IMG/VR virus record: IMGVR_UViG_3300032084_001411
Coordinates: 1 to 64,000 of that record
Reading direction: 5' to 3' (one strand)
Source of the DNA: a virus
Length of the DNA: 64,000 nucleotides
A model generated the notes under the pieces. The model searched no databases. It worked only from the letters and a program-made list of their open reading frames with translations, and was not told where the DNA came from. Positions 7,089-53,717 of the stretch are shown here, piece by piece (position 1 is the stretch's first letter; each line of letters starts with the position of its first letter). Both the position numbers and the translations under genes were made by a program.

Positions 7089-7278
7089 AAAATTTAAATT
7101 ACCAAAAAGAATAAAAGAGAATACGAATAAACCTATAGAAATTGAGGCTATGCTCCTCGAACAAGAATATATGAAGTTACTCGAAAAAGGTACTCTAGAT
7201 GAATACGAAGAGTTTCTTTTAGATTATTACCATAAGAGATGTAATAAATTGTGGACTAAAATAGCGAGGAAATCATAA
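7081..7278 (+). CDS. Hypothetical protein
   Basis: 65 residues from the ATG at 7081; a TTG further upstream is less likely. Highly charged and helical (IEIEAMLLEQEYMKLLEKG, DEYEEFLLDYYHKR). It is wedged between the nucleotidyltransferase and helicase genes, overlapping each by a few bases. No family is recognised. Confidence 0.55.
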   Translation: MDKKFKLPKRIKENTNKPIEIEAMLLEQEYMKLLEKGTLDEYEEFLLDYYHKRCNKLWTKIARKS

Positions 7279-10106
7279 TGCCAAGTAAATATACTAACCT
7301 ATCCTGTCCTTTATGTGATAGTTCTGATGCGGGAGCTATCTATCAAAACATAGACGAGAAATCCGGGGAACCTTTTTTCATGTTTCGGTGTATGAGCGGT
7401 AATCACGCTGACCACCCCAATAATATAAGAATTGAAGACGCTGACAACTATGAAGAGGAAATTATGAACCCTAAAGGTATTCAAAAGCAACCTTCTGAAC
7501 CTAGAATGGAGTCTATTGGCTTACTAAATACAGGTAAGTACGAGGACTTAGATAATTCTGATGACCCTTGGGGTTATAGAGGATTAACTGCTGAAACTCT
7601 AGAATATTACGGAGTTAGTGTTGCTGAGGATGTTGCTTTAACCAGAAATAGGAAAGTTATTGAACAACGTATGGCCGACAACCTCTCTACTCGCGGGAAA
7701 GGACTGGTATTTCCTTATTATTCTAGCGTTGACAACACTTTAATATGTCAAAAAGTACGTACTGCTGTAGACCGTAAAGGAGCTTGGTATAAAGCTGATA
7801 GCACTAGTGTTAGCATGGCGGGTTTCTTTGGGCAGAATCTGTTTAACGCTAATGTTCTAAACGAGATTGCAGTGACTTTTGGAGAGATGGACGCTATGGC
7901 TGTTCACCAAATGGTAGGTGTGCCAACAGTCAGTGTTTCTAATGGGGACCAAGCCGCTCAAGGACAATTTAGGAACGAGTATTCTTGGCTGTCTAAATTT
8001 GATAGAATTATTCTCATACCTGACAATGATGAGTCTTGTCGGTCTATCGTCCCTCTTCTAGGCGCTGTATTTCCGCGTAAGATTCGAGTAGTTGAATTAA
8101 CTAAATATAAAGACCCATGTGAATATTTGATTAACAAGGAGAGGCAGTTATTTGCAGAAGAATTTTATGCTGCTCAACCGTATTCCCCTGAAAAGATTAT
8201 TAACTTATACTCACTTAAAAAGTTGATTTTTGAGGACCCGCCTGAACCTCTAGCGGACTACCCTTGGGAAGGTGTGAATAAAAAGACAGGTGGAATTTGG
8301 GCGGGGGACCTTGTGGTTTTAAAAGCCTTCCCAAAAGTAGGTAAATGCTTCGGCAAGGACACCCCTGTTCTTATGTGGGACGGTTCTGTTAAAAAGGTGC
8401 AAGATGTTAAGGAAGGCGATTTGTTGATGGGTGATGATTCTACCCCTAGAGAAGTAAAATCTTTAGCTAGAGGTAGAGAAAATCTTTATAAAGTTAAACA
8501 GAATAAACGTATGGATTATGTAGTTAATGAGTCCCATATAATGTCTGTAATGAAAACAGGTTCGTATGAAACTAAAGATGTTCCGCTATTAGAATACTTA
8601 GAAATGCCTCAAAGAGAAAGATGGAAAGGATACGCGGCCCCTGTCTTCAAACAAGATATTGAGGATACTGAAAGACCCAATCTATCTTGGGACGCGCAGG
8701 TATTGGGCTTGTGGTTGGGCGATGGTACGTCTTTAGAACCTAGCTTTACTACTACTGATGACGAGATAGTTGATTATCTACAAGAGTATGCGCAATCTCG
8801 GGGCATGGAATTCGGCTATAGAAACGGCCCTGACGATATTATATACCGTTTTAAATCAGGTGAGGCGGGAAATAACTACTTCTTAAACTTGCTTAAAAGA
8901 CTTGAACTTTTGGGGGATAAACATATACCAGATGAAGTTTATTTCTGGCCTGATTCCGCTCGTTTAAGTTTACTAGCTGGCCTATTAGACTCTGACGGAC
9001 ATTTAATTAAAAATATCGACGGGGATATAACTTGTGTAGAAATTGTTCAGAAAAACAAATACCTAGCAAAAGGTATAGTGAAGTTAGCACAGTTCTGTGG
9101 TTTTCGAGCTTCCATGTATCAAACTGAAAAATCATGCACATACAAAGGGGAAAAGCGCACTGGTACTTACTACCGTATATTTATTAATGGAGACTTACAC
9201 AAAATTAATGGCGTTCTACCTCATAAACAAACATACGGGTTTAGAAATAAACGTAACCCCCTTATAACTGGTATAGAAGTAGAGGCTATTGGTATCGGGG
9301 ATTACTATGGGTTTGTTTTAGATGGTAACCACAGGTTTTTACTTTCTGACTGTACTGTAGTCCATAACACCACTGTTAGTTCTGAAATTGTTTATCATCT
9401 AAATAAGACAACAGACTACCCTATCGGTCTTATCTTTTTAGAAGAAACTCAAAGAGACTTGATTGTTAGATTTGCTACTATGGAACTTAATAAGAACTTA
9501 CAGGTGAGTGGTATATTTAGGGATACTGACCCTTCTGAAATTGAAAAAGCTATTGATGTAACCCTTAGCAGTGAGAAAATTACTTTACTAGACCATTTTG
9601 GGTCTTGCTCTTCTGATTTCCTAGAAGAGAAAATTAAAGAGTTTGTCTTAGCTAAAGGGTGCCAATTCATCTTTTTCGACCACATATCTATGGCCATTAC
9701 CGACGATACTAACAAGGACGAGAGACTTGCTTTAGATAGACTTGTGGCCTCTATTAAAGCCTTAACAGTCGGGATAACAGACTCTATTACAATTCCAGAT
9801 GAAGAGAACGGGGGCACTAAACAAGAGCAGATTACACGCCAACCTACAGTGTTCATGGTTACCCATGTTAACGACGATGGTAAGCCTAGAGGTTCCCGCG
9901 CTCCGATTCAAATGTGTAATACAATGATTTCTTTGGAAAGGGATAAGAACGCATCGGACGATAATAGCCGCAACACTCTGAAGCTTTTTGTGGAAGAGAA
10001 TCGTAGGTTCGGGGATACGGGGTTGGCCAGTGTCCTATCTTATAGCCCCTCTACTGGCCGCTTAAATGAAGTCCCATTAGAAAATGAAGGGGAAAGACAT
10101 GACTAA
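7278..10106 (+). CDS. Replicative helicase-primase (T7 gp4/Twinkle-like) interrupted by an intein
   Basis: 942 residues as encoded, about 601 after splicing. The N-terminus has a zinc-ribbon-like start (CPLCD near residue 10). A TOPRIM-type region follows with FGEMDAMA and ILIPDNDES. The SF4/RecA-like helicase core has its Walker A motif (PKVGK/TT) split by a 341-residue intein. After the intein come FLEETQRDLI, the Walker B-like strand FIFFDHIS and the THVNDDGKPRGS motif. The spliced protein would unwind DNA 5'-3' ahead of the family A polymerase encoded next. Priming activity is uncertain because the zinc motif is not fully typical. The gene overlaps the polymerase start. Confidence 0.9.
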   Translation: MPSKYTNLSCPLCDSSDAGAIYQNIDEKSGEPFFMFRCMSGNHADHPNNIRIEDADNYEEEIMNPKGIQKQPSEPRMESIGLLNTGKYEDLDNSDDPWGYRGLTAETLEYYGVSVAEDVALTRNRKVIEQRMADNLSTRGKGLVFPYYSSVDNTLICQKVRTAVDRKGAWYKADSTSVSMAGFFGQNLFNANVLNEIAVTFGEMDAMAVHQMVGVPTVSVSNGDQAAQGQFRNEYSWLSKFDRIILIPDNDESCRSIVPLLGAVFPRKIRVVELTKYKDPCEYLINKERQLFAEEFYAAQPYSPEKIINLYSLKKLIFEDPPEPLADYPWEGVNKKTGGIWAGDLVVLKAFPKVGKCFGKDTPVLMWDGSVKKVQDVKEGDLLMGDDSTPREVKSLARGRENLYKVKQNKRMDYVVNESHIMSVMKTGSYETKDVPLLEYLEMPQRERWKGYAAPVFKQDIEDTERPNLSWDAQVLGLWLGDGTSLEPSFTTTDDEIVDYLQEYAQSRGMEFGYRNGPDDIIYRFKSGEAGNNYFLNLLKRLELLGDKHIPDEVYFWPDSARLSLLAGLLDSDGHLIKNIDGDITCVEIVQKNKYLAKGIVKLAQFCGFRASMYQTEKSCTYKGEKRTGTYYRIFINGDLHKINGVLPHKQTYGFRNKRNPLITGIEVEAIGIGDYYGFVLDGNHRFLLSDCTVVHNTTVSSEIVYHLNKTTDYPIGLIFLEETQRDLIVRFATMELNKNLQVSGIFRDTDPSEIEKAIDVTLSSEKITLLDHFGSCSSDFLEEKIKEFVLAKGCQFIFFDHISMAITDDTNKDERLALDRLVASIKALTVGITDSITIPDEENGGTKQEQITRQPTVFMVTHVNDDGKPRGSRAPIQMCNTMISLERDKNASDDNSRNTLKLFVEENRRFGDTGLASVLSYSPSTGRLNEVPLENEGERHD
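8346..9368 (+). mobile_element. Intein with LAGLIDADG endonuclease in helicase P-loop
   Basis: 341 residues, starting Cys (CFGKDTPVLMWDG, block A) and ending VVHN before an extein Thr. The block B position has NESH instead of the usual TxxH. Two LAGLIDADG helices are visible (VLGLWLGDG and LLAGLLDSDGH), so an in-frame homing endonuclease is present. Block F is GDYYGFVLDGNHRFLLSD. Insertion is exactly between Lys and Thr of the Walker A motif, so the helicase is inactive until splicing. Block A Cys and terminal His-Asn are intact, so splicing should work. Confidence 0.93.
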
Positions 10107-13100
10107 CACGATATTTATAGACTTTGAAACTAGAAGTAAATGTGATATTACAAAAGCAGGTGCTTGGCGGTATTCTCAAGACCCAACTACTGATGTGATG
10201 TGCATGGCGTACGCTATTGATGATGGGCCTGCGCAATTATGGGTTCCTTCTCATTTTGACCTACCCGCTGATTATGAAGAAACTCGAACTAAAGACTTAC
10301 ACCATAAAATTAACCTAGCTGAAAAACGTAAAGAAAAATACAGTAAAGAACAGGGCAAAGATGAGTTATACGAGAAAGCTGTGGAGGAAATTAAATTCTT
10401 TAAATCTTTGTTAGACGATAATGGGGAATTTAAACTCTCTTTTACCTACCACACAGATGTCCCCGCTTTTATAACAGATAGAAAAGTATTTGAAGACGTT
10501 GGGGGGTTGTTAGAAGCCCATAACGCTTCATTCGAACAAGCTATATGGGCGAACGTACTCGTACCTAAATATGGAGCTTTTGAGGCCCCTCCTATTATTT
10601 GGAGAGACTCTATGGCTATGTGTGCCGCCCACAACATCCCTCTTTCTTTGGAGAAGGCTGGTGCGGCTTTGAATGTAGATAAACAGAAAGACTTAGAAGG
10701 TAAGAGGGTTATGTTACAACTTTCTCAACCACGTAAACCTTCTGCGTCTAACCCAAAAGAATGGTGGGAACCAACTGAGGCTGCTGATAAATTTGAAACC
10801 GTATTTATGTATTGTATGGATGATGTGGAGACAGAGCGGGCTATTGGTAAGGCATTAAACCCGCTTACAAAGAAAGAACAGTGGGTTTGGCTACTAGACC
10901 AAATGGTTAACCAACGCGGTGTACAAATAGACGTAGACTTAGTATATCGTTGCCTAGACATTATTAAAGAGCATACAGAAGCGGGGAAGAGACGGATAAC
11001 TGAACTTACTAACGGTGAAGTAACAAATGTTTCATTAGTAGCTAAATTAAAAGACTGGGTTATTAGTCAAGGTGTGAAAGTTGAGGATATGACAAAAGCT
11101 TCGGTAGAGGCTCTTTTAGCCGATAAAGACACTCCCGAAAATGTTCGAGAAGCTATGCTTATCCGGCAATCTCTTTCTAAAGCTAGTACTAAAAAACTAG
11201 ACACAATGCTATTTGCCAAGGCTATAAACGATAATCGTATTCGGTACACTCTTTTATATCATGGAGCATCCACAGGAAGATGGGCTGGGAGGCTTATCCA
11301 AGTACAAAACTTTCCTAGAGGTTCTATAAAAGATATAGACCAAGCAGTTCAAGACTTATTTGATTTAAGTTTAGAAGAACTGCAAGATAAGTACGGAGAT
11401 GTGATGGAAGTCATTTCTTCTTGTCTTAGAGCTATGATTGTACCCGACAAAGGACATGATTTTATTGTTGCTGACTACGGAGCTATTGAAGCTAGGGTCG
11501 TTATGTGGTATGCAGACGAGCAGGATGCTCTACAAAAGTTTCGAGATGGTGTCGATTTGTATAAAGATATGGCGGGCTATGTATACGATAAACCTTTAGA
11601 GGAAGTCGATGATAGTGAAGAACGTCAATTAGGTAAAAGCATAATTCTCGGTTGTTTCGAAGAGGATACTCCAGTCTTGACAAATAGCGGCGTGAAGCGT
11701 ATTATAGACGTTCATGATACGGATTTGTTATGGGATGGAATTGAATGGGTAAAACACCAAGGACTACAATACCAAGGAATAAAAGAGACGAAGAGGACTT
11801 ACGGAATAGGCGCAACTCTGGACCACGAGATTCTAGTGGACGGTACGTGGCAGGAGTGGAACGAGGTAACTACAAACCCTTCCCTTTTCCAGAAGGCGCT
11901 CAATTTGGAGAACTTACCGTCGAGCGCTGGGAACGAAAATACGATAAACGAGGACGCTCTCAAGGCTTCCACCCTCTCTGTTATTGTTCCTGTGGCAGAC
12001 GAACTCATATTGATAGGCACTCCCTTAAATCAGGAAGAACACGCAGATGCAATGTCTGCGCTAAGAAAAAGAGTTCAGCGACCCGGAAAAAATATATTGG
12101 ATATGCATCGATTGTACCCGATGACCGACATAGGGAAAGACTGCTTAATAGAATCAGTGCTTGCATCAGCCGATGCCATGTCGAAAGTAACACCTATTAC
12201 GAACATTATGGAGGGAGGGGAATTAGAGTCCAACCTGAATGGCGTAGAGACAGAAAATTATTCTTGGAGTATCTTATCACTTTGGAAGGATGGGACAAAC
12301 CCTTCCTTGAACTGGACAGAATTGATGTCAACCGTGGATATGAGGAAGGAAATTTACGCTTCTGCACTCGTAGCGAAAACATGTCAAATCGAAGAAGGGT
12401 GTCTGACCTCCAAAAACAAATCAATGAACTCGAAGCAGAGGTCGAGCGTTTACGACATTATGAACGCCGGGCCAAGGAATAGATTCACTATTATCACTAA
12501 CCACGGCCCTATTATCGTTCATAATTGCGGGTTTGGAATGGGGGCTAATAAATTCCAGATGACAACTGAGAGCCAAGGGCTACAACTCGATGAGAAGATG
12601 GCTGCTGCTGCGGTTAAAGCTTATAGAGAGAAATATTCTGGCGTACCCCAATTCTGGAGAAATACAGAGAAGGCGGCTATTGACGCGGTTAAGACTAGAG
12701 AACCTCAAGAAACTAACAAAACTACGTGGGTTTTTAACGAAGAAACTAACTTTCTAGAATGTCTACTCCCTTCCGGGCGGTCTCTATATTATTATAACCC
12801 TAAGATTAAAATAGGTTGGGCAGTTAAGTGGATTGACAGTAAAAAGAAGTTTCATTACGATAAATACGATTCTAAAGATGAAGCTTTACTCGCTCTAAGT
12901 GGGCGTAAAGATGACCCACTTTGTACTCGCATAGTTGATAATGACATACATGAAGATGAATCTTTGACCCATATGGGGGTCAACAGCGTTACTAAACAGT
13001 TTCAACGGCAGGAAACTTACGGCGGGAAGCTTGTGGAGAATGTCGTACAAGCTACTGCCAGAGATTGTATGGTCGAAGGTATGTTTAGAACAGAAAAAAA

Positions 13101-13266
13101 TAAATACTTGACAATTATGACAATTCATGATGAAATAGTATCTGAAGTTCCAGAAGGACAAGGTTCTGTTGAGGAATTCGAGTCTTTATTAGCCCAAACC
13201 CCCGAATGGGCTGACGGTCTACCTTTGGTAGCCGAAGGATGGCGGGGAAAGAGATACCGTAAATAG
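10099..13266 (+). CDS. Family A DNA polymerase interrupted by an intein
   Basis: 1055 residues from the ATG at 10099 (GGGGAAAG upstream; an ATG at 10084 is in frame), about 764 after splicing. The N-terminal 3'-5' exonuclease motif IFIDFETRS comes first, then EAHNASFEQAIW. Polymerase motif A is VADYGAIEARV, motif B (O-helix) is RQLGKSIILG/CGFGMG split by the intein, and motif C is MTIHDEIVSEVP. This is the replicative polymerase of T7/SIO1-type phages. Its start overlaps the helicase stop, and the SSB-like gene follows, forming a replication operon. Confidence 0.93.
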   Translation: MTNTIFIDFETRSKCDITKAGAWRYSQDPTTDVMCMAYAIDDGPAQLWVPSHFDLPADYEETRTKDLHHKINLAEKRKEKYSKEQGKDELYEKAVEEIKFFKSLLDDNGEFKLSFTYHTDVPAFITDRKVFEDVGGLLEAHNASFEQAIWANVLVPKYGAFEAPPIIWRDSMAMCAAHNIPLSLEKAGAALNVDKQKDLEGKRVMLQLSQPRKPSASNPKEWWEPTEAADKFETVFMYCMDDVETERAIGKALNPLTKKEQWVWLLDQMVNQRGVQIDVDLVYRCLDIIKEHTEAGKRRITELTNGEVTNVSLVAKLKDWVISQGVKVEDMTKASVEALLADKDTPENVREAMLIRQSLSKASTKKLDTMLFAKAINDNRIRYTLLYHGASTGRWAGRLIQVQNFPRGSIKDIDQAVQDLFDLSLEELQDKYGDVMEVISSCLRAMIVPDKGHDFIVADYGAIEARVVMWYADEQDALQKFRDGVDLYKDMAGYVYDKPLEEVDDSEERQLGKSIILGCFEEDTPVLTNSGVKRIIDVHDTDLLWDGIEWVKHQGLQYQGIKETKRTYGIGATLDHEILVDGTWQEWNEVTTNPSLFQKALNLENLPSSAGNENTINEDALKASTLSVIVPVADELILIGTPLNQEEHADAMSALRKRVQRPGKNILDMHRLYPMTDIGKDCLIESVLASADAMSKVTPITNIMEGGELESNLNGVETENYSWSILSLWKDGTNPSLNWTELMSTVDMRKEIYASALVAKTCQIEEGCLTSKNKSMNSKQRSSVYDIMNAGPRNRFTIITNHGPIIVHNCGFGMGANKFQMTTESQGLQLDEKMAAAAVKAYREKYSGVPQFWRNTEKAAIDAVKTREPQETNKTTWVFNEETNFLECLLPSGRSLYYYNPKIKIGWAVKWIDSKKKFHYDKYDSKDEALLALSGRKDDPLCTRIVDNDIHEDESLTHMGVNSVTKQFQRQETYGGKLVENVVQATARDCMVEGMFRTEKNKYLTIMTIHDEIVSEVPEGQGSVEEFESLLAQTPEWADGLPLVAEGWRGKRYRK
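11653..12525 (+). mobile_element. Intein in DNA polymerase motif B, lacking an in-frame LAGLIDADG domain
   Basis: 291 residues beginning CFEEDTPVLTNSG (block A) and ending GPIIVHN, followed by an extein Cys. Block B is ATLDHEILVDG with a proper T-x-x-H. Block F is SVYDIMNAGPRN. Between blocks B and F about 190 residues show no recognisable domain in this frame, only an open reading frame. The same DNA encodes an HNH-type endonuclease in another frame. Splicing residues Cys1, TxxH, His-Asn and +1 Cys are all intact. Insertion is inside the nucleotide-binding O-helix, a site where splicing is essential for viability. Confidence 0.9.
11745..12482 (+). CDS. HNH homing endonuclease encoded out of frame inside the polymerase intein
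   Basis: A 245-residue open frame shifted by -1/+2 relative to the intein. From about residue 50 it reads like a complete phage HNH endonuclease: EGAQFGELTVERW (50-62), a cysteine cluster C79/C81/C83 and C102/C105 for zinc, YGGRGIRVQPEW (155-166), LDRIDVNRGYEEGNLRF (190-206), the NRRR end of the domain, and a C-terminal coiled coil. The first 45 residues overlap intein block B and may not be translated; a GTG near residue 35-38 is an alternative start. No strong Shine-Dalgarno is seen. The coding part fits exactly between splicing blocks B and F. Confidence 0.8.
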   Translation: MGKTPRTTIPRNKRDEEDLRNRRNSGPRDSSGRYVAGVERGNYKPFPFPEGAQFGELTVERWERKYDKRGRSQGFHPLCYCSCGRRTHIDRHSLKSGRTRRCNVCAKKKSSATRKKYIGYASIVPDDRHRERLLNRISACISRCHVESNTYYEHYGGRGIRVQPEWRRDRKLFLEYLITLEGWDKPFLELDRIDVNRGYEEGNLRFCTRSENMSNRRRVSDLQKQINELEAEVERLRHYERRAKE

Positions 13267-13318
13267 CGGTGTCGAACAACTCAAATTAGAAGGACAATCC
13301 TGAAAGGAAACATTTAAT

Positions 13319-13987
13319 ATGACTACTTCTAATACTCAAAAGAAAGAGTACACCGGGGATAAACCGGACTTTTGTACTCTCCGTGGGGTTTCAATGTACG
13401 CTAAAGTATTTCAACCCTCTGCATATAATGAACAATATAACATCCCTGCTCGTTGGGAGGTGGATTTGTTGCTCACGAAAACAGAGGCAGAGAATGCTAA
13501 GAGTCGTGGATTGAACATCCGAGACGATAATGACCGTTACCGCGCTTTTCTAGAAGAAAACGACCTTGTATCTAAAGGTTTTGAAGGTGCGTTCATTAAA
13601 ATTAAAAAGCCAACTACCCGTAAAAAATGGGATGCAGAGGCAGGTGCTACAGTCAAAGACGCATCTGGCCAACCAGTTCTGGAAGCTGCCCCACGCCCAC
13701 GAGTAGTTGATTCTCAAGGGACTGAAATCCCTGAAGAAGCAGGTCTTTTGGTTGGTAATGGTTCTGAAGTCGAATTGACTTTCATAATCACTAAACCGAA
13801 AGCTGGTGGCCGTGAACAGTTTGGTAAGTTTGGTGGCCGTTTGGTAGAGACCAAGATTCTTGAATTGGTCGAGTATCAACGCCCTCAAGGTTCTTTCACT
13901 TTTAATAGTGAGAGTACAACTGAAGCTGAGAGTTATCAAGCTGATATGGCAGAGGATGAAATTCCCTTTTTGCCAGATGAGGAATAA
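13319..13987 (+). CDS. Single-stranded DNA-binding protein (T7 gp2.5-like)
   Basis: 222 residues. The body looks like an OB-fold with beta strands (WEVDLLLTKTEA, EVELTFIITKPK, GGRLVETKILELV). The last residues form the acidic tail typical of SSBs (MAEDEIPFLPDEE, with an aromatic inside). It lies directly after the polymerase gene and before a terminator-like hairpin. It would coat ssDNA and contact the helicase and polymerase through its tail. The assignment rests on context, tail and strand pattern rather than a unique motif. Confidence 0.75.
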   Translation: MTTSNTQKKEYTGDKPDFCTLRGVSMYAKVFQPSAYNEQYNIPARWEVDLLLTKTEAENAKSRGLNIRDDNDRYRAFLEENDLVSKGFEGAFIKIKKPTTRKKWDAEAGATVKDASGQPVLEAAPRPRVVDSQGTEIPEEAGLLVGNGSEVELTFIITKPKAGGREQFGKFGGRLVETKILELVEYQRPQGSFTFNSESTTEAESYQADMAEDEIPFLPDEE

Positions 13988-14052
13988 CACCCACCTCTGT
14001 AGTGCGGAAGCTAACTGCACTTAAAACAAAAGAATGCTGAGTCCGTTATGGG

Positions 14053-14088
14053 GCGGGGTACTTGTAGTAAGAAACCCCCGCATTTTTT
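14053..14088 (+). terminator. Rho-independent terminator after the SSB-like gene
   Basis: GCGGGG at 14053-14058 pairs with CCCCGC at 14076-14081 and is followed by a run of six T. It lies between the SSB-like gene and the exonuclease gene, so it may separate or attenuate two transcripts. Confidence 0.75.
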
Positions 14089-14107
14089 AAAGAAAGGAAT
14101 CGATATA

Positions 14108-15073
14108 ATGAGTTTTACATACGACCCAGATACCGCTAAAAAGAAAGGTTCTTTTACCTTTCAACAAACAGGGATTGACACCTTAGTAGATGATATCTAC
14201 GAGTACATGGGTGGTGGAGGCAAATTTCCTAAATTAGACGAAGATGCTGCTGAACAGCTTATGGAGATTCTCTCTCATATTGTCGTTGAAAGGCTTAAAG
14301 AACGAAGAAATGAAATTAAAAACTTTAATAACGACTCTAGTGGTTTTAAGCTTCGTATGTCCAATTACGGACAGCCTTCCAGAAAGCTTTGGTATGAGGC
14401 TAATGTCGGAACAGACCTTGGAGCGACTGACCCTAGAGCTTTTCTTAACTTTTTAATTGGGGATATCTGGGAAGGCGTTCTTCTTTTCATCGCTAAACAG
14501 ACTGGGCATGATGTCTCAATGGAGCAAGAAGAGGTAGAGTTAGACGGTCTTGTAGGTCATATGGATGCTGTTATTGACGGGTATCTCGTAGATGTAAAGT
14601 CTGCCTCTAAATATTCCTTTGAGCGCAAGTTCACCTCCGGGGCTATATTTGAGGGGGACGACCCTTTTGCCTATATACCTCAGATTAAAGCTTATGGTAA
14701 AGCCACAAATATGGATAAACAAGCTTGGTTAGTGGGTAATAAAGAGAACGGGATGCTCGCTACGGTTAAAGTGCCTGAGCATATTGAATTTGACGCTGTA
14801 GCTAAGTTACGAGAAGCACGTAAAGTTATTGCTATGTCTGCTCCACCAGAAGAGAAATGTTTCCAGCCTGTCCCACATAATAAAAGTGGAAATATGCAAC
14901 TTAATGGTAATTGTAAGTTCTGCGCCTTCAAAGAAAGGTGTTGGAAAGATGACGGGCTTAGGGCCTTTAAATACGCTACTGGCCCCGTATATCTAACACA
15001 TGTTGAGTCTGAACCTAAAGTTGAAGAAATTGATATCTACGGTACTTGGGAAGATAGTGAATATGCCGAATAG
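14108..15073 (+). CDS. RecB/Cas4-like PD-(D/E)XK exonuclease
   Basis: 321 residues from the ATG at 14108 with AAAGGA upstream. The nuclease core is visible: FLIGDIWEGVL, GLVGHMDAVIDGYLVDVKSAS (D...D-V-K) and a C-terminal cysteine cluster CKFCAFKERCW of the iron-sulfur or zinc type seen in Cas4/AddB-like enzymes. The enzyme probably degrades host DNA or processes recombination or packaging intermediates. The stop overlaps the resolvase-like gene by 11 bases, so the two nucleases are co-translated. Confidence 0.8.
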   Translation: MSFTYDPDTAKKKGSFTFQQTGIDTLVDDIYEYMGGGGKFPKLDEDAAEQLMEILSHIVVERLKERRNEIKNFNNDSSGFKLRMSNYGQPSRKLWYEANVGTDLGATDPRAFLNFLIGDIWEGVLLFIAKQTGHDVSMEQEEVELDGLVGHMDAVIDGYLVDVKSASKYSFERKFTSGAIFEGDDPFAYIPQIKAYGKATNMDKQAWLVGNKENGMLATVKVPEHIEFDAVAKLREARKVIAMSAPPEEKCFQPVPHNKSGNMQLNGNCKFCAFKERCWKDDGLRAFKYATGPVYLTHVESEPKVEEIDIYGTWEDSEYAE

Positions 15074-15401: not shown

Positions 15402-15404
15402 TAT

Positions 15405-15900: not shown

Positions 15901-15912
15901 TATATTAAAATA

Positions 15913-15986
15913 TTCCAACTCTGGCTTTCCTGAATTTCCACTTAGGACCGTTACGACTCAAATTGGGCGGCTGGAGTTGGATTTTT
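15913..15986 (+). terminator. Possible long-loop terminator or structured leader before nrdB
   Basis: TCCAACTC (15913-15920) is the exact reverse complement of GAGTTGGA (15974-15981), which is followed by five T. The loop of about 53 bases is long for a simple terminator, so a structured leader of the nrdB-nrdA transcript is also possible. Confidence 0.4.
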
Positions 15987-16031
15987 AACCCATAACCCAC
16001 AGGACAATAAGAAGAAAGGACCGGGAGCGCA

Positions 16032-44995: not shown

Positions 44996-45010
44996 TATAT
45001 ATTTCCTTTC

Positions 45011-46186
45011 CTAGAACTTAGTCCGTTGTTGGTCTTTTTTAACCTCAAGAGCATATTCTTCGAGAGTCATATGCCTTTGCAAATGATTCTTCCAGTAGTT
45101 ATGCATCTCTTTGGTAATTACAACTTTATTTGATTTAGTGGAGTTGTTTAGATTAGGAGAAGACGAACGGGAAGCGCCCTTGGCAGGAACTTTTTTGGCT
45201 TTATTAGCTTTTTGTGGTTTTTCCGTCTCACCAGACGTGTCGTCAGGATTACTCCCTTTATCGCTATTAATATATTCTAACGCATCTACCCCATCATTTG
45301 CAAGTGCTTCATAATAATCAAATTTACTAGTTAGTCTAATATCCATTTCTTCGTAAAAGATAGGGTCAGTATTTGAAAAACCTTCTTGCAATAATTGACG
45401 CGCTACATTAGCCATTTCCTGCCTAACAGGAGAGACAAGTTTCCTCTGGTCTACTGTTAGCTCCCGGTACTCATCATTGTTAATAATAAACTCTTTACCC
45501 AGAGTCCAATCTTCAGCAGCCTCACTTAGGCTGGAAGATTGTGGCTCTCGGGTATTAGGCTGCGGGTTCTGTGCCTGAGCGGAATTATTACCTGTTTTCT
45601 TATCTGCATTGACCATTGATTGCAGATTTCTAATATGTGTTTGTGAATCAATAAGCTGTTTCGTAACAGAAGCAATAGCTTCCCCATCATTATCTTCGGC
45701 GGCTCGTTTAAGTTGGGCTTCAAGTCTAGCTACATCAGCGGTAAGCCGTTCTAGCTCTACTTTAGCATAAGTAGATGTTGTTTCATCGTATTCGGATTGA
45801 AGCTTTTCCATTTGAGCATTTTGTTGCTCCAAAACCATTTCCAACTGACGATTCTTTTCATTTAAGTCTTGAATTCGTTGTTTAGCACGAGACTTTCTTT
45901 TCTTCTCAGTCGCTTCAGCCTTTTTTCTCTTCTCTTCATCTTCTCGGTTATCTTCTTCGGCAACTGGGGCGGGGTCTTCTTCAATAGGCTCTTCCTCGAT
46001 AATAACATCGCCAGTTTCTGTTACTTCTAGCTCTAAATCACCTTCATCTTCTTGGATAGTATTTCCATCAACATCAATTTGGAAAGAAACTTTATTTGAA
46101 GTCTCGTTCCCACCATCATCGTCACTGAGAAAGTCGTCTAGACCATCTCCATCTTGAATCTCAATTTCCATTTTTTCTTTTGGCAT
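45011..46186 (-). CDS. Putative scaffolding protein
   Basis: 391 residues. A long acidic N-terminus (DGDGLDDFLSDDDGGNE and EEEPIEEDPAPVAEEDN) is followed by a coiled coil (QRIQDLNEKNRQLEMVLEQQ, VELERLTADVARLEAQLKRA) and a basic C-terminus. Acidic plus coiled-coil proteins just before the capsid gene are typical scaffolds that shape the procapsid and leave before packaging. No protease domain is seen. Confidence 0.7.
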   Translation of the reverse strand: MPKEKMEIEIQDGDGLDDFLSDDDGGNETSNKVSFQIDVDGNTIQEDEGDLELEVTETGDVIIEEEPIEEDPAPVAEEDNREDEEKRKKAEATEKKRKSRAKQRIQDLNEKNRQLEMVLEQQNAQMEKLQSEYDETTSTYAKVELERLTADVARLEAQLKRAAEDNDGEAIASVTKQLIDSQTHIRNLQSMVNADKKTGNNSAQAQNPQPNTREPQSSSLSEAAEDWTLGKEFIINNDEYRELTVDQRKLVSPVRQEMANVARQLLQEGFSNTDPIFYEEMDIRLTSKFDYYEALANDGVDALEYINSDKGSNPDDTSGETEKPQKANKAKKVPAKGASRSSSPNLNNSTKSNKVVITKEMHNYWKNHLQRHMTLEEYALEVKKDQQRTKF

Positions 46187-46203
46187 AAAGTACGTTCCCT
46201 TTC

Positions 46204-46692
46204 TTAACCGTTAACCTCTTGTATCTGTTTTTGTAGTTCTTGCAATAGTGAAGCATCGTAATCATAATAAGGATTAATGTCTCGAATATCATCTACTGTA
46301 TATAAAAGCGCTTCGTCTGGCATTAGATAGAATTTCCGTCCACCATGAATAATCGTTTGAGAGAAGGATGCTCTAGAAAATACAGCATAGTCTCCCGGTT
46401 GACACCAAGGTATAAATTCATCTGTTTCTGGATTTTTAAATTTATTATGTTTATAGGCTAATTCACCTAATTTTACCACTACACCTGCGGTAATCATATT
46501 CTCATGGGTTTCCGCTACATCCTCGGGTAAATCAATAGTAAAACCAGTATTGCTATCTTTTATAGAAGGTTTGAGAGCAATAGGGTATACTAAAACATAC
46601 CACGAACCTTTAAGATTTGGCAAGGTTTTAGGTAATTTTAATTCCTCGTTATCGAAAGTCATTAAATCATCAAGTTTTTGAATCTGTGTCAT
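46204..46692 (-). CDS. GroES-like co-chaperonin
   Basis: 162 residues. The layout fits a GroES-type barrel: WYVLVYPIALKPS, a mobile-loop-like stretch, AGVVVKLGELAYKHNKF, PWCQPGDYAVFSRASF, and a closing GGRKFYLMPDEALLYTVDDI. The ATG overlaps the groEL stop (TAATG), which strongly suggests a partner. It is longer than bacterial GroES (about 97) with extra N- and C-terminal parts. The order groEL-groES is reversed from bacteria. Confidence 0.7.
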   Translation of the reverse strand: MTQIQKLDDLMTFDNEELKLPKTLPNLKGSWYVLVYPIALKPSIKDSNTGFTIDLPEDVAETHENMITAGVVVKLGELAYKHNKFKNPETDEFIPWCQPGDYAVFSRASFSQTIIHGGRKFYLMPDEALLYTVDDIRDINPYYDYDASLLQELQKQIQEVNG

Positions 46693-48347
46693 TATTCTTC
46701 TTCCTTATTAACAATACTTACTTCTGTTGTTACCAATAAGCCAACTACATTAGCGGCATCAATAACAGCGTTTTTAACTACTTTAGCTGGGTCTATAATT
46801 CCTTGAGTAAAAAAGTCACAAAACTCCTCTTTATCAACATCATAACCCTCATTGTCTTCTTTTAATGTACGTAACATAATAGAAGTAGCGGCTTCCCCTT
46901 CAATACCAGCGTTCGATAGAATCGTATAAAAAGGTGATTGGAGGGCAGCAACTACAATATCGCTGCCATCAGTAGCAGGGAGGTTCCTAGAAAGGTAGTC
47001 TGACGCTCGTAGAAGCGCTGTGCCCCCACCTGTCACGACTCCTTGTTCTACAGCAGCTTTTGTGGCGTTAATAGCATCTTCAATACGGTCTTTTCTTTCC
47101 CCCATATCAATTTCAGAAGAGCCACCTACTCGAATAACCGCAATACCTCCATTTAACTTAGCTAAACGGTGTTTAGTTAGCTCGTAAGATTTATCTGCCT
47201 TGTCCATAGAATCTACTTTAGATTTAACTTGCGTGATTCTTTCCTCTAACGTAGTTTTATCTGCTTCTCCGTCAATAAACTCAGTAATATCGCTATTTGC
47301 CCGCACTCTCGTACATTTACCGAAATGTTTCTCAGTTACGCTCCCTAAAGAAAGGCCAGAAGTTGCAGAAATAACGGTTCCTCCAGTAATAACTGCTAAA
47401 TCTTCAATAAAATCAGAGCGAGAAGGGACATATTCCGGTACTTTTAACACAAGGACCTTGAATCCGTTCTGAACTTTGTTATAAACAAGAGTAGAAAGTA
47501 CATCTTCAGCCATATCAGAACAAACAATTACTAAAGTTTTTTCCTGAGTATGGGCAAGCTGCATAATACCTACGATTTCTTTGATATCATTAATCTTAGA
47601 ATCAGTGAAGAGGACCCAACAATCCTTATAATCAGCAATCCCTTTATCTGGGTGGGTAATAAAATGAGGAGTAGCGAAACCAGCAGGAAACTCCATACCC
47701 TCAACAACATCCATAGTCATCTCAGTCTGTGGGGCGGGTTCCACCGTAACAACACCATCTGAACCAACTTCTTGAACTGCGCGACTAACAATATCGCCAA
47801 CTTCTTTATCTCCATTGGCAGAAATAGTGGCAATAGACTTCAAATCCTCAAAATCAACCACTTCTCTAGCTTTAGAAGTGATAAAATCAGTTACCTGTTT
47901 TACTGCAATATCGATTTCCTTTTTTATAGTAACGGGGTTTTTCCCCTCACTAATAGCTTCAACAGCTTTAGTAGCGATAGTTTGGGCAAGCACAGTAGCG
48001 GTAGTAGTACCGTCCCCAGCTTGCTCATTTTGCCTCATAGCTACTTCTTTTATAATTTGTACGCCAAGATTTTGAAACTTATCTTCTACATTAATCTCTT
48101 TAGCTACAGATACTCCATCCTTGGTAATTCTGGGCATTAAACCAATTTGAGTTTGCATCAACCCAACAGTTCTAGCTTGCTCAATAACTACATTTCGACC
48201 ACGAGGGCCAAGTGTAGCTTTAACAGCATTTGCGATTAAGTCGATACCTTCTAGTAACTTGGTCCGAGACTCGGCCCCAAATTTTAGTTCTTTATTTTTA
48301 TGGCTAGTTTGTAAATCTTGTCGGTTCAGTTGTTCTTGCATCACCAT
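46692..48347 (-). CDS. groEL: GroEL-type chaperonin
   Basis: About 551 residues from the ATG at 48347 (an ATG at 48341 follows). Hallmarks of group I chaperonins are present: ATLGPRGRNVVIE, ITKDGVSVAKEI, QNEQAGDGTTTATVLAQ (nucleotide-binding GDGTTT), KLNGGIAVIRVGG and VEQGVVTGGGTALLR. The apical domain is divergent and the Gly-Gly-Met tail of GroEL is replaced by a short acidic end. It is placed in the head module next to the portal and scaffold genes, so capsid or tail folding is its probable job. Confidence 0.92.
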   Translation of the reverse strand: MVMQEQLNRQDLQTSHKNKELKFGAESRTKLLEGIDLIANAVKATLGPRGRNVVIEQARTVGLMQTQIGLMPRITKDGVSVAKEINVEDKFQNLGVQIIKEVAMRQNEQAGDGTTTATVLAQTIATKAVEAISEGKNPVTIKKEIDIAVKQVTDFITSKAREVVDFEDLKSIATISANGDKEVGDIVSRAVQEVGSDGVVTVEPAPQTEMTMDVVEGMEFPAGFATPHFITHPDKGIADYKDCWVLFTDSKINDIKEIVGIMQLAHTQEKTLVIVCSDMAEDVLSTLVYNKVQNGFKVLVLKVPEYVPSRSDFIEDLAVITGGTVISATSGLSLGSVTEKHFGKCTRVRANSDITEFIDGEADKTTLEERITQVKSKVDSMDKADKSYELTKHRLAKLNGGIAVIRVGGSSEIDMGERKDRIEDAINATKAAVEQGVVTGGGTALLRASDYLSRNLPATDGSDIVVAALQSPFYTILSNAGIEGEAATSIMLRTLKEDNEGYDVDKEEFCDFFTQGIIDPAKVVKNAVIDAANVVGLLVTTEVSIVNKEEE

Positions 48348-48567
48348 TATTTTCTCTTTGTTCCTCAATTGCCTCACGTAAAACATCTACAACTTCATCA
48401 AGTTGGAATAGTCTAGCTGCGGCAACTACTGCGTTTCTGTCTTCATCTGATAAAAGGGAGTTGCCCATTACTTGAATAAGTTGGGCCTTCTGCTTCGTTA
48501 TATAATCCATTAAAGGGGTTATAACGGAATCGTCATCTGCTCGTATAACAATTTGATTATCTGACAT
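48304..48567 (-). CDS. Hypothetical protein between portal and groEL
   Basis: 87 residues, helical (ITPLMDYITKQKAQLIQVMG, NAVVAAARLFQLDEVVDVL) with a charged tail. Its 3' end overlaps the groEL start by 44 bases. No family is recognised. Position suggests a head-assembly accessory. Confidence 0.6.
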   Translation of the reverse strand: MSDNQIVIRADDDSVITPLMDYITKQKAQLIQVMGNSLLSDEDRNAVVAAARLFQLDEVVDVLREAIEEQRENNGDARTTEPTRFTN

Positions 48568-48599
48568 TTTTCCTCACTTTTATAGTACTTCTTATAATA

Positions 48600-51044
48600 C
48601 TACTTTTTATTAGTTATGTCAACTTTATTAGGTGTTCCTAAACCAGATAAAGCATCTTTAATCATATCGGCACTTTTCATAAATCTAGTTTTAGCCATAT
48701 CCGCTTTAATCTTATCGGCAACATCAGAAGAGTCTTGGAGCATTTCAACAGCTTTCAAGTCAAGCTTACGCCCTTCAATTGCAAGTTTAGCGAAATCTTT
48801 CTCTTTATCATGCGCTAATTCTTCTCTACGTGTCTGAGCGTTCTCAAGTTCTGATTGAGCGAGCATCGCTGCGGGGTCTTTAGAAGCAAGAGCCTCTTCA
48901 AATGCCTGTGATTCATGGAACTGCTTAATTTGAATAGCTGCATCAGCTAAAGCTTTCTCTCCAGTCTGGCCGCCATTTAACTGTAATTGACCGCCAATAT
49001 CTCGTACATAGGCAAACATAGCATGTTCAGCTATATTAGCTTGTAAAAGAGGGATAATAGAGGCCGCGAGGGGCTGTGCGCCGCCTTTAGGGTCCTCTAA
49101 AAACGCTTGTTTAAATGAAATATGAGCCTCATGGTCTTGACCCTCAAATGCTTTAACTGGTTTGCCTTGAGATAGGGCAACAATATCTGATAATGGGTCA
49201 AGAGGCTGAGCTTCTGCAGGAGGGGGTAGAAGTCTATCAATTTCTTCCGGTTCCATCCCAATTTGTGAATAAAATTCTGTATAGGCTGCTCGTAAATTAT
49301 GAATGTCTGGTGCTTGTTGTGCAGCAGCAAGTTTTGTCTGTGCTACAGCAATTCTATGTGCAGAAGAAGAGAGGTTAGGGTCTGCCGCTGGCATTAAATC
49401 TACCTTCCCGCTAAAGTCTTCTTTACGGACACTGAAACTTTGTCCTTTTAAGAAGAAGTCTTGTGTTTCATCAAGCACATCAAAATTCAAATCATGAAGA
49501 ATTTGGAATTCTTGTTTAAGACCATTATAGAACCGTTTAAGAATACCTGAAGTAAACTTAGTAGAAGCTTCTAGGAGCGCTACAGTTGTCCCTACGGGGC
49601 CATAATTAGTAGAATCAGCAAGAACCTGCTCTGTAGTATCCGCAAACTTCTGAGCGCGGCCATCTAAGAATTGCGCTATTCTCTCTAACACCTGTGAAGG
49701 CTCTTTAAAATCGAGAGGCATAAGAACATCTTTAATATTCTTTGTACCTGTATCAATCTCCCGGAACTCTCCAAAACGAATTGGCATTTGAGAGTCTCGC
49801 GTGAATCGAACTCCTTTAGCTCTGAACCCGCCTTGCAGGTTGGAGAACTGGCCTGAGTCAATGAGACTGCGTAAAATAGAAGTAAGAGCAAACTGAAAGT
49901 TTCCTAAAATATGGATATAACCCATACCATGAAACCCGAGACCGGGTATAAGTTGATAATGCGCGTACCACGTTCTTTTCAACTTCTTATTGTCAGTTTC
50001 TTTCCAATTACGGCGGATACTTAAAATTTTATTACGTGAATCTTCAATAGCAACAATATACGGTAAAGCTCTAGATAGCCCTTCGTCATACGGGGCGGGT
50101 AATTTAAGATAGCAGTGATGTTCTCGAATCTGGAACTTACTAAAAGTAGAAGAGTGCCCCATAGCGTCCCCAGTACCTTCTATAACTATCTCAGAATCTA
50201 CTTTAGTCGGGGAAGCATTACCTACATTAGCAACACTGGAAACTATATCATTATCTAAAGAAAAACCCTCACCATACTCATACTCGTCTACGTTTACATA
50301 CTCGCCAAGTTCGCCTAAATGCTCGAACTCGTGCCTGTCTAACGTAAATAACTCTGTGTGGAAATCAGTGTCCGCAACTGTAGAAGCATCGGAATTGATA
50401 ATAAATTTATCTTCTGTTAGGTATTTTGTTCGAGGTCTGTTTTGAATAGGGTCGAAATAATATTTACGATAAGCATTACCTGTTAGCGCATATCTAAAAG
50501 ATAGTTTTTCTGTGTCGGGAACAAATTCATTCATTTGATAAAGATATTGGTAATCCATATAATTACGGACACGATTAGAAGATTGAATAGTTTCTTCATT
50601 TGTCTCTGTTATGAGATACGTGTCTACAAGACCTTTACCTGAGAAAATTTCCCCCATAATTTTTGCCTGAGTTTTTAGGGCTGACTCCAAAATCAAAGGA
50701 TGGGTGATGGGGGACGCACCCGGAAAAGGTTCATCGAGTTCCTCTATCGTTAAACCTAATTTTTCTAATCCTAAATTGATACCGTCGAAGAACTCGCCGT
50801 TAGAAGATAAATCATCATTATATCTATCTTGGCAAAATTGACTAATGCGCCCTAAAGTCTCTTCTTCTAAAAAGACAGCTAGGTTCGCGTCATGCTCGTT
50901 TGAATCGATGTTTGGTTCGAGGTCTTCTTCCTCGTCTGGGTTTGAGAATACTACTTCAATATTCCCTTCATCGTCTGTTGGGAGTAGTTGAATTTCTAGT
51001 TCATCTTCGGGGAGTTCAAAATCTTTAATAAAATCGTCAGCCAT
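48600..51044 (-). CDS. Portal protein
   Basis: 814 residues. An acidic N-terminus (ELPEDELEIQLLPTDDEG) precedes a portal core with FPGASPITHPLILESALKTQA, KLSFRYALTGNAYRKYYFDP and GLGFHGMGYIHILGNFQFALT, and the crown-like helical C-terminus (LAQSELENAQTRREELAHDK). It resembles large podovirus portals. The portal forms the dodecameric entry for DNA and binds the terminase encoded just upstream. Confidence 0.85.
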   Translation of the reverse strand: MADDFIKDFELPEDELEIQLLPTDDEGNIEVVFSNPDEEEDLEPNIDSNEHDANLAVFLEEETLGRISQFCQDRYNDDLSSNGEFFDGINLGLEKLGLTIEELDEPFPGASPITHPLILESALKTQAKIMGEIFSGKGLVDTYLITETNEETIQSSNRVRNYMDYQYLYQMNEFVPDTEKLSFRYALTGNAYRKYYFDPIQNRPRTKYLTEDKFIINSDASTVADTDFHTELFTLDRHEFEHLGELGEYVNVDEYEYGEGFSLDNDIVSSVANVGNASPTKVDSEIVIEGTGDAMGHSSTFSKFQIREHHCYLKLPAPYDEGLSRALPYIVAIEDSRNKILSIRRNWKETDNKKLKRTWYAHYQLIPGLGFHGMGYIHILGNFQFALTSILRSLIDSGQFSNLQGGFRAKGVRFTRDSQMPIRFGEFREIDTGTKNIKDVLMPLDFKEPSQVLERIAQFLDGRAQKFADTTEQVLADSTNYGPVGTTVALLEASTKFTSGILKRFYNGLKQEFQILHDLNFDVLDETQDFFLKGQSFSVRKEDFSGKVDLMPAADPNLSSSAHRIAVAQTKLAAAQQAPDIHNLRAAYTEFYSQIGMEPEEIDRLLPPPAEAQPLDPLSDIVALSQGKPVKAFEGQDHEAHISFKQAFLEDPKGGAQPLAASIIPLLQANIAEHAMFAYVRDIGGQLQLNGGQTGEKALADAAIQIKQFHESQAFEEALASKDPAAMLAQSELENAQTRREELAHDKEKDFAKLAIEGRKLDLKAVEMLQDSSDVADKIKADMAKTRFMKSADMIKDALSGLGTPNKVDITNKK

Positions 51045-51080
51045 AAATAAATCCTTTCATCAAGTATATAGATTAATTGC

Positions 51081-53717
51081 CTAATGGCGCAAGTATCCAG
51101 AGGTGTAAGACCCACCTACAAAAAAGTCCTCTTCCTCTTCCATTTCTTCTACTTCTTGATAGGTATAAGATTGGTCAGTAAGAACATTATTATCTCTGCA
51201 AAAGAGAAGAAATTGGGAGAAAGCATCGGGAACATCATCATGGTTACCGCCGGGGAAAGTACATATCTCTGTTACAAAATCTGTTGATTTAGTACAGGCA
51301 TTAGCATCATCTTCTGGCATAGGAACCCAAATAATACCGCTCTTCACTAATGGCGCTGCTGCTTGCATACGCATAATCTTATCTTTTTCTGTCTTCCAAG
51401 CATATATAGGCAGCCCTCTTTTAATCAAATCGGGTACAAGAGCTAATCCAGAACTTCTTTCTTCTAAAATGAAATAATCTATTTGCTCTTCCCTATACAT
51501 TTTCATAAATAAATCTACTAACTCCGGGTAGTCCCATTTCCCCTTCTTAGCATTAATGAGAATTGCATGTGTTTTATATATAGAATTTGGTATTGAATGG
51601 TCTTGATAATTAAAAAGCCCCCATAATTGAAACGCAGTAAAGTCACTTTGAGTATTTTTTGTATAGGCTGTGTCAGCAGTAACAATAAAAGTGTGGCATT
51701 GAGGGGGTGTATCTTCTTTCCAATGTTTAAAATCTTTAGGGTTAATCATTTGCCCTGTTTCTGGAGTAGGATTTTGCATATATACCGCATTCCATCTAGG
51801 CATGTTATTTACATACGAGTTTCTAAGCATCTCTAAACGATTAGTTGGATGGAACTCGGGCCAAAAAGAAGTGTCTTCGACTAAATACCCTTCTGGGTCG
51901 CCCTCTTCTCGAAGAAAGTCACTCGCCTCTTCATCTAAAAGAGCAGGTATTCTTATTATTTTCCAAGGAGACCCAGACTTTCTATCTTCTTTTTCAAGAT
52001 AATCAAATAAATCTCCTTGGGTCCACCTTGTATTATGAGTAACCAATCCTTCTGCTATAAAATTATGGTTATCTGCTACTTCTAAATCATATATATCATC
52101 AACATAACCAGTATCAACTATCTTTTTAACTTTAGTCGTTACAAATTCATCTATGTGTTTAGTTTTCGATATATGTATCGAATAGCTGTGACTTACAAAA
52201 GGTTCTGGGGAATTAGGGGGTTGAGAAACCCTTGACCTATATCTAATTTTACCTACAGAATGTCCTAAACTTTGAGCTAATTTTTTTATATCCTTAACTA
52301 AATCTTTATTACATAGTTCTGTACAAAAAGCTCCACTATTTTCTTTCACTTCCCAGCCATCTGCTTCCAAAAACCCTTCAAGAAATTTTTCTCTAGTAGT
52401 TATGCAAGCAGAATAAACCCATTTAGGGATTCTTTTAGTACGAGCAGAACCTTTTAGCCCTAAGTCATTAAAAAACTCCCATGCCCGTTTTGTATCTGAA
52501 CGATAATACCCAGAATCAGTTTCGCGTAAATCAACATCTATTAGTTTCTTAAAAGCGTTAATAACTCTTTCATTAACTGATTGATGCTCTCCTTTAGCTA
52601 CACAGGTAACATATCTATTAGTAGCTCTACCCTTTTTAGGAGTATTTATTAACCAACCATCTCCGTACATAAAACCTAATAGCCATGCCTTCTCATCTTC
52701 AATAGCCGGGCCATCTCGTTTATCTAATGCCCTCATAACTATTTCATCGCCGGGATTTAAATCTATTAATCTACAATATTGATTATTCTTTAAAAGAAAA
52801 GGGTGTTTCCAGTTACCTTTAACTACGTCTCCATTTTGGGTATGCACTTCATATATCTTATCTTCCCCTGCCTTCCACTGCTTGACCACAGGTTTAACTT
52901 CCATCTTAAAAGTTTTATGGTTTAAAGTTTGTATTAAATCTCCTTCATTTAAATTAATTATATCTTCGTATACACCATCAGCTTTGAGTATCTGCGTATC
53001 TTTAGTTAGACACCCCACCTGCAATTCTGCACAATCGGGACTCATTAAAAGACGGGAACGAACGTTTGGCATATATTGACCTACCATTCTCATTCTAATA
53101 GGTTTAGATAAAGCATCTTCTTCAACCAAAGCGTCATCACAGATAACAATATGGCCACGGCGACCAGCTATCTTTGCTTCTAAAGAGGTACAAACCATTT
53201 CCCCGCCAGATTTAGTCAAGAAACGACCTGCTGTTTGTTTATCTTCTCTTAACTCTGTATTTGGGAAAATAGTCTTAAACTCATCACTTCTAACAATATC
53301 CCGAATCTTAGCCCCGAACTCGTCTCTAGCAAATTCAATACCGTGACCTACAAGAATCATTCTAATTTTAGGCCACCTACCTAGTAACCATGAAGGGAAA
53401 AGACGAGAACAAAGCTCTGACTTCATACCGCCGGGAGGAAGAGAAATCATTTTACGGGGGGTTAATCCTGTTTTTAACCATATAGCCTCCCCCAGTTCTT
53501 GTAGCTCTTCACAAATCTTTTTAATATGTCGTCCTGTTTGGAACCCATCAATCCTTGTAGGTCCTAAAAGAAGAACATAATGATAAAAAGATTCTCTAGC
53601 CATATTAATGGCTTCTTTTTCTAAGAATTTAGATATTTCGTCCACTGCCTCTTTAGGCAGCTTATTTAATTCAGCACTAGTAATATACTCTAGATATTCT
53701 TCTTTATTTTTAAACAA
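51081..53717 (-). CDS. terL: Terminase large subunit interrupted by an intein
   Basis: 878 residues as encoded, about 551 after splicing. The ATPase part includes SLPPGGMKSELCSR (Walker A-like), HIVICDDALVEEDA (Walker B with acidic pair), and TRWTQGDLFDYL, the motor coupling motif that follows the intein. The C-terminal nuclease domain has FIVTADTAYT, YFILEERSSG and GNHDDVPDAFSQ, supplying the acidic metal ligands. The motor pumps DNA into the head and cuts it. The first codons overlap the small basic gene. Confidence 0.93.
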   Translation of the reverse strand: MFKNKEEYLEYITSAELNKLPKEAVDEISKFLEKEAINMARESFYHYVLLLGPTRIDGFQTGRHIKKICEELQELGEAIWLKTGLTPRKMISLPPGGMKSELCSRLFPSWLLGRWPKIRMILVGHGIEFARDEFGAKIRDIVRSDEFKTIFPNTELREDKQTAGRFLTKSGGEMVCTSLEAKIAGRRGHIVICDDALVEEDALSKPIRMRMVGQYMPNVRSRLLMSPDCAELQVGCLTKDTQILKADGVYEDIINLNEGDLIQTLNHKTFKMEVKPVVKQWKAGEDKIYEVHTQNGDVVKGNWKHPFLLKNNQYCRLIDLNPGDEIVMRALDKRDGPAIEDEKAWLLGFMYGDGWLINTPKKGRATNRYVTCVAKGEHQSVNERVINAFKKLIDVDLRETDSGYYRSDTKRAWEFFNDLGLKGSARTKRIPKWVYSACITTREKFLEGFLEADGWEVKENSGAFCTELCNKDLVKDIKKLAQSLGHSVGKIRYRSRVSQPPNSPEPFVSHSYSIHISKTKHIDEFVTTKVKKIVDTGYVDDIYDLEVADNHNFIAEGLVTHNTRWTQGDLFDYLEKEDRKSGSPWKIIRIPALLDEEASDFLREEGDPEGYLVEDTSFWPEFHPTNRLEMLRNSYVNNMPRWNAVYMQNPTPETGQMINPKDFKHWKEDTPPQCHTFIVTADTAYTKNTQSDFTAFQLWGLFNYQDHSIPNSIYKTHAILINAKKGKWDYPELVDLFMKMYREEQIDYFILEERSSGLALVPDLIKRGLPIYAWKTEKDKIMRMQAAAPLVKSGIIWVPMPEDDANACTKSTDFVTEICTFPGGNHDDVPDAFSQFLLFCRDNNVLTDQSYTYQEVEEMEEEEDFFVGGSYTSGYLRH
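52032..53012 (-). mobile_element. Intein with LAGLIDADG endonuclease in the terminase
   Basis: 327 residues beginning CLTKDTQILKADG and ending GLVTHN before an extein Thr. LAGLIDADG-type helices are LLGFMYGDGW and FLEGFLEADGW. Block F is DDIYDLEVADNHNFIAEG. Block B is weak (GNWKHPFLL). The insertion is between QVG and TRW in the conserved GTRW coupling motif. Confidence 0.92.

Follow-up and report, generated by a model that had tools for sequence, protein, structure and literature searches.

A phage DNA polymerase intein that shares its DNA with an out-of-frame HNH gene

Inteins are usually seen either as two-domain elements with an in-frame endonuclease or as immobile mini-inteins. How should an intein be read when its own frame holds no endonuclease and the same bases encode one in another frame? 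The question is raised by the window analyzed here, a stretch of 64,000 nucleotides that makes up positions 1 to 64,000 of the 66,483-base virus record IMGVR_UViG_3300032084_001411. On its plus strand, an open reading frame (ORF) at 10084..13266 encodes the precursor of a family A DNA polymerase (DNA_pol_A, 4.5e-21; phrog_17, 2.1e-96), and this precursor contains an intein of 291 amino acids (11653..12525). The initial annotation of the window described three inteins and an HNH “linked” to this one. An HNH is indeed present with the PolA intein, but it is nested inside it, in another frame of the same bases. We interpret the insertion as a single mobile element made up of two overlapping genes, a splicing intein and a separate HNH homing endonuclease, and put the probability of this interpretation at roughly 0.85.

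One insertion read in two frames

In the polymerase frame, the insertion has the characteristics of a class 1 Hint intein. It interrupts the O-helix motif (RQLGKSIILG|CGFGMG), begins with Cys1, ends with His290-Asn291, and is followed by a +1 Cys. Across 44 aligned relatives, C1, T55, H58, H290, and N291 are invariant or conserved in at least 90%. AlphaFold2, run on input alignments built without phage-record sequences, predicts a Hint fold, with a predicted local distance difference test (pLDDT) score mostly above 95 at both intein ends. The N-terminal half of the splicing domain (residues 1-91; 11653..11925, plus strand) scores about 97 over residues 1-80 and 81 over residues 81-90, and the C-terminal half (residues 259-291; 12427..12525, plus strand), in which VYDIMNAGPRNRF...IIVHN is conserved, scores 88-97. 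Between them lies an in-frame linker of about 167 amino acids (residues 92-258; 11926..12426, plus strand) that is predicted to be disordered, with a pLDDT below 50, and is little conserved in this frame; it is open solely through the absence of stops. The top Foldseek matches are inteins (mini-inteins) with a probability of 1.00, at an E-value of only 3e-3 because of the disordered middle. Searches of Pfam, NCBIfam, and PHROGs found no in-frame endonuclease domain beyond a weak whole-length match to phrog_93. The host gene is continuous without the insert. Once the intein was removed, the polymerase peptide aligned in one piece through the junction with the intein-free PolA of Variovorax phage V45iii (47.8% over 176 amino acids), and an empty site in Salmonella phage skrot, described below, agrees.

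The DNA of the linker encodes most of the HNH endonuclease ORF, which specifies 245 amino acids (11745-12482, plus strand) and lies wholly within the intein. Its frame is +2 relative to polA, such that HNH codon position 1 falls on polymerase codon position 3. The product matches phrog_374 at 7.5e-33, and phrog_374, phrog_3377, and phrog_2081 were all matched by 39 of 39 aligned HNH relatives. The protein carries a zinc-ribbon-like CxC...CxxC motif, and C81, C83, C102, C105, D191, R192, N203, and N212 are invariant among the aligned relatives. The AlphaFold2 model of the HNH protein has a mean pLDDT of 83.5.

To find related inteins, phage records were searched with tblastn, viral contigs and genomes were scanned, and the inteins were clustered at 90%. 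The loci that we kept (L numbers below) are the best-scoring matches to the query, and the proportions therefore describe this intein family rather than inteins at large. Among 84 clusters, the HNH is in the +2 frame of the window in 75, in the +1 frame in seven, and absent in two; none has an in-frame HNH, as a bifunctional intein with an in-frame endonuclease would, and none has an in-frame stop in the intein. With a further scan, the +1 group grew to 62 distinct inteins, and 20 mini-inteins without an HNH were identified. The two-genes-in-one layout is thus conserved in two alternative frames and present in well over 100 related phage inteins. For example, HNH and intein matches coincide in polA of EBPR siphovirus 2, Vibrio phage 97.13, and Pseudomonas phage MR14, and in some 150 Salmonella and related phages, with an equal relative frame where this was checked. 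One apparent in-frame HNH, in L095 and L111 (phage SS3e, one contig), was not counted because an indel, which probably reflects a sequencing error in an old record, splits the intein itself between two frames. Two other loci (L029:3001-5172 and L045:3001-5253) have two inteins per polA, one with a +2-frame HNH and the other with a +1-frame HNH.

Both frames are open to an extent that the other frame does not account for. With the HNH protein kept and synonymous codons permuted, 4.5 stops are expected in the intein frame; with the in-frame protein kept and codons shuffled, 6.8 are expected in the HNH frame. Zero were found in either frame in 75 of 75 relatives. We then counted differences at polymerase codon positions 1/2/3 in 33 independent pairs. 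The exteins (838/541/2473), the N part of the intein (127/91/294), and the C part (52/30/163) all change fastest at position 3. In the overlap, the counts are 823/2278/1245, and the fastest position is polymerase position 2, the wobble position of the HNH, in 33 of 33 pairs. The constraint changes frame at an intein offset of about 205, before which polymerase position 3 is fastest, and returns about 75-90 nucleotides before the end. For the +1 clade a different position is predicted, and there polymerase position 1 is fastest in 20 of 21 pairs. Because of these patterns in both clades, we conclude that the middle of the insertion is under selection as an HNH and both ends as an intein. The AlphaFold2 models agree with this map, being confident at residues 1-91 and 259-292 and below 50 at residues 92-258. 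Chance overlap of the frames is ruled out by the synonymous shuffles together with the codon-position test. With selection that changes frame and back within 870 bases, this is an uncommonly clear example of dual coding in nature.

Expression and mobility of the element

Translation of the HNH would initiate independently, at an ATG formed by the Glu-Trp codons of the intein. In the window, this ATG arises from GAA-TGG (Glu31-Trp32, in the motif WDGxEWV) and is abutted by a TGA stop in the HNH frame (TGAATG, 11742..11747, plus strand). An ATG is found at the common HNH start in 51 of 75 relatives, and where the codons are GAG-TGG, most lineages have an ATG six bases downstream; the choice of Glu codon is associated with this second ATG (Fisher, 2.5e-7, with relatives that are not fully independent). 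An HNH-frame stop lies inside the intein upstream of the start in 57 of 75 relatives. It is one or two codons upstream in 21 of 75. A four-codon ORF in the window (11730-11747; ATG GGA TGG AAT TGA) ends right at the HNH start codon, where reinitiation would be possible, and a short upstream ORF of this kind is not generally conserved.

A candidate internal promoter precedes the HNH start. A -35-like TTGACA (11677..11682, plus strand) covers the Leu9-Thr10 codons of the intein, and a -10-like TATTAT (11700..11705, plus strand) follows 17 nucleotides past it, about 40 nucleotides upstream of the HNH ATG; the pair matches the sigma70 consensus at 11 of 12 positions. In the +2 clade, the element keeps one register, at intein codons 9-10 and 16-18. 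A fixed-register TTGACA-17-TATNNT match of at least 10/12 was found in 37 of 75 members of this clade, compared with none of the 62 inteins of the +1 clade and none of the 20 mini-inteins. Leu9 is encoded by TTG in 50 of 75, compared with 13 of 82 controls (Fisher, 6.8e-11). When the best promoter match in the region was scored, it reached at least 10 in 31 relatives against a synonymous expectation of about 1.8, the number being lower than 37 because the -10 in that scan also had to have A at position 2 and T at position 6. A consensus match is no proof of a promoter, yet it is difficult to see what else would account for this choice of codons at such divergent synonymous sites, and in the +2 clade a sigma70-type promoter within the first codons of the intein may help to express the HNH. 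A strong Shine-Dalgarno sequence was also considered as a general expression signal and is unsupported at the common start (ATG92), where ribosome-binding strength is not above the synonymous null (mean P 0.51). In the +1 clade, an AGGAGGT ahead of ATG145 looks strong, but mini-inteins without an HNH have it at a frequency that is not significantly lower (Fisher, 0.26).

The element has probably moved between closely related genes. Salmonella phage skrot has an exact empty site (GKA|CEL) with flanks 95.2% identical to those of Salmonella phage Ent1, which carries the intein, and is 897 nucleotides shorter; presence and absence are exact between these Jerseyvirus polA genes, which are closely related. 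Some pairs share an intein core that is far more alike than their host genes: in L092 and L094, the divergence of the overlap is 0.028, while the exteins differ at 170 of about 1,200 aligned bases. In L074:2125-4665 and L087:2164-4713, the same intein with its out-of-frame HNH is located not in polA but in a Snf2-like DNA helicase gene (phrog_62). For the PolA intein family, exact presence and absence and the closeness of the cores support the homing exchange that the initial annotation had proposed. Judging from these genomic comparisons, homing is likely driven by the HNH, which would cut intein-free polA at the insertion site, while the class 1 intein would splice out of the polymerase precursor.

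Another arrangement is found at a second polA site, which follows HTGR. There, the intein is split in L003:312-4018, L028:725-4449, and L086:2-3393: an ORF ends past the N half, an HNH ORF overlaps that end, and a new ORF begins with the C half. An unsplit counterpart at the same site (L048, 763-4476) has its HNH in the +1 frame. Together, these loci suggest that inteins pass between cis and split forms by way of overlapping endonuclease genes, with the direction unproven. Translating the nuclease separately would uncouple it from the splicing protein, and the linker would need only to be stop-free and harmless; a split intein with the HNH between its halves would be the expected outcome once in-frame read-through is dropped.

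Alternative explanations and known systems

Several observations weigh against reading the insertion as an intein with its own HNH gene. About half of the same-frame relatives have no promoter match of at least 10/12 at the fixed register, and the ribosome-binding null at ATG92 adds to this. Identification of the HNH rests on PHROGs: no HNH family was matched in Pfam or the PDB, PDB sequence and fold searches gave nothing useful, and Pfam returned only coiled-coil-like noise on the 39 HNH relatives. The invariant D191-R192...N203...N212-N215 occupies the place of the canonical H-N-H, and catalysis is accordingly a prediction. The cluster counts are not fully independent phylogenetically.

Could the second frame be a by-product, with the insertion a plain mini-intein whose long linker is open by composition or descent? 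Overlapping ORFs are common in GC-rich DNA, both frames are open here, and the comparable intein in the Ent1 record is labeled as “encoding splicing domains” only. We give this possibility almost no credence, since the HNH profile match is strong, no HNH-frame stop appears where 6.8 would be expected with the intein protein fixed, and substitutions avoid the positions that change the HNH in every pair of the +2 clade and, with the different fastest position predicted for the other clade, in all pairs there but one; the codon-position test refutes it. A self-splicing group I intron with an HNH ORF, of the type annotated (“type I self-splicing intron”) for gp38/gp39 of Sodalis phage SO-1, has the precedent that HNH ORFs are well known in phage group I introns. 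However, the region has no Rfam match at the gathering score or at E<=1, the insertion is open in frame in all clusters, and both ends conserve the Hint residues and fold, making the intron very improbable.

Two further explanations accept the HNH and differ as to how it is made or what it serves. Ribosomal frameshifting from the polA/intein frame would yield a Hint-N/HNH fusion with no internal initiation, would need no start signal, and sits well with the ordinary ribosome-binding strength at ATG92. The upstream HNH-frame stops argue against it, since a shift would be possible only past the stop and in the window the TGA directly abuts the ATG; the start codon and promoter-like element are also conserved, and we regard frameshifting as improbable. 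Alternatively, the HNH could be a free-standing endonuclease gene that parasitizes the intein linker and either homes alone or has a role elsewhere, such as in packaging. Phages commonly have HNH genes with no intein, and the same family includes mini-inteins that have no HNH. Yet the intein and HNH move as a unit, even into the helicase gene, and the skrot site is precisely without both, which leaves this explanation doubtful.

The preferred interpretation, of an intein and an overlapping homing endonuclease gene forming one element, has its nearest published case in the ShiLan domain and the Pacc40 insertion, in which phage DNA methylase genes carry an out-of-frame HNH (Arsenault, Gosselin & Gogarten 2025, PMC11855218). 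As in ShiLan, the HNH of the PolA intein is read out of frame from an insertion through which the host frame runs open, and a disjunct distribution suggests homing. ShiLan has neither the splicing motifs nor the fold of an intein, and it is predicted to remain in the methylase (PMC11855218), whereas the PolA insertion has Hint ends and its host frame encodes a Hint intein that interrupts an essential active site. The PolA family also shows codon-position selection in two different alternative frames, together with an internal promoter-like element that is conserved. With canonical bifunctional inteins (LAGLIDADG, rarely HNH), the PolA intein shares a Hint domain, a conserved active-site insertion, and an endonuclease for mobility, but its endonuclease is a separate overlapping gene and not a domain of the spliced intein. 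Both of its ends have the conserved fold of mini-inteins such as Ssp DnaB, gp41-1, and Npu DnaE, to which it adds about 167 in-frame residues, predicted to be disordered, whose DNA encodes the HNH.

The same architecture, with Hint ends and an out-of-frame HNH, was recognized by hidden Markov model matches in APSE-1 (P46 within the P45 polymerase) and in Sodalis phage SO-1 (gp39 within gp38). These are single record entries, the SO-1 entry being labeled an intron, and the records hold no intein-wide interpretation. In fractured genes, an intein is split and a free-standing endonuclease lies between its two halves. L003, L028, and L086 resemble them, while the intein of the window is not split and is fully overlapped. 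No endonuclease encoded out of frame within a Hint intein was reported in our full-text searches, which did not cover a 2025 preprint by Gosselin et al. (actinobacteriophage inteins, “non-canonical architecture”) or Gorbalenya 1998, “Non-canonical inteins,” either of which may contain an earlier report; this gap in coverage lowers confidence in the novelty and not in the observation.

We lean, by a small degree, toward a broader proposal: that these inteins form an unrecognized, widespread class whose homing endonuclease is a separate, out-of-frame overlapping gene. The class would have arisen with HNH genes in each of the two alternative frames, acquired a promoter of its own within the intein codons of one clade, and given rise to split inteins upon loss of read-through. 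The PolA family would be a third design beside two-domain inteins and mini-inteins, and the two-gene layout would explain how phage polA inteins that seem to have no endonuclease could still spread. If so, many supposedly endonuclease-free “mini” polA inteins in phage records would be mobile, and the overlap would offer a way in which mobile cis-inteins might become split inteins. Since synonymous recoding can separate the two frames, splicing and homing could be tested independently.

The other inteins of the window

The helicase and terminase inteins of the same phage are ordinary LAGLIDADG inteins. The helicase intein (8346..9368, plus strand) lies in the Walker A motif (FPKVGK|TT), runs from Cys1 to His-Asn before a +1 Thr, and contains an in-frame LAGLIDADG endonuclease (Hom_end_hint, 2.2e-21; LAGLIDADG_3, 7.8e-7). 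The intein of the terminase large subunit (53012-52032, minus strand) is inserted immediately ahead of TRW (ELQVG|TRWTQGD), again with Cys1, His-Asn, and a +1 Thr, and has an in-frame LAGLIDADG-type endonuclease (Intein_splicing, 2.9e-19; Hom_end, 1.5e-6). Translation found all three insertions open in frame. Peptides with the intein removed were searched against intein-free homologues, and Roseobacter phage CRP-227 (helicase) and Pelagibacter phage HTVC023P (terminase), like V45iii for PolA, continue through the junctions.

The initial annotation was therefore right as to the three inteins and their boundaries, the intact terminal Cys and His-Asn, the +1 residues Thr, Cys, and Thr, and the LAGLIDADG nucleases in two of them; the comparisons that it called for, with intein-free homologues and with close relatives, upheld the exact junctions of all three and revealed a PolA intein of this family as exactly absent in skrot and present in Ent1. 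Because the inserts split the P-loop and the O-helix, it is a reasonable inference that replication and packaging would depend on splicing, as it had also proposed. Its emphasis on three inteins in one phage as unusual is misplaced, given that Ent1 is annotated with both a LAGLIDADG helicase intein and a PolA intein. The truly unusual feature is the overlapping, out-of-frame HNH of the PolA intein.

Two minor observations concern the wider genome. The Jerseyvirus Ent1 (L006:5607-7570) and the window phage both combine a LAGLIDADG helicase intein with a PolA intein that has an out-of-frame HNH. Immediately upstream of the terminase, positions 53710-54027 (minus strand) encode a strongly basic, repeat-like protein of 105 amino acids; it has no family match in Pfam or PHROGs and recalls the N-terminal tails of phage endonucleases.
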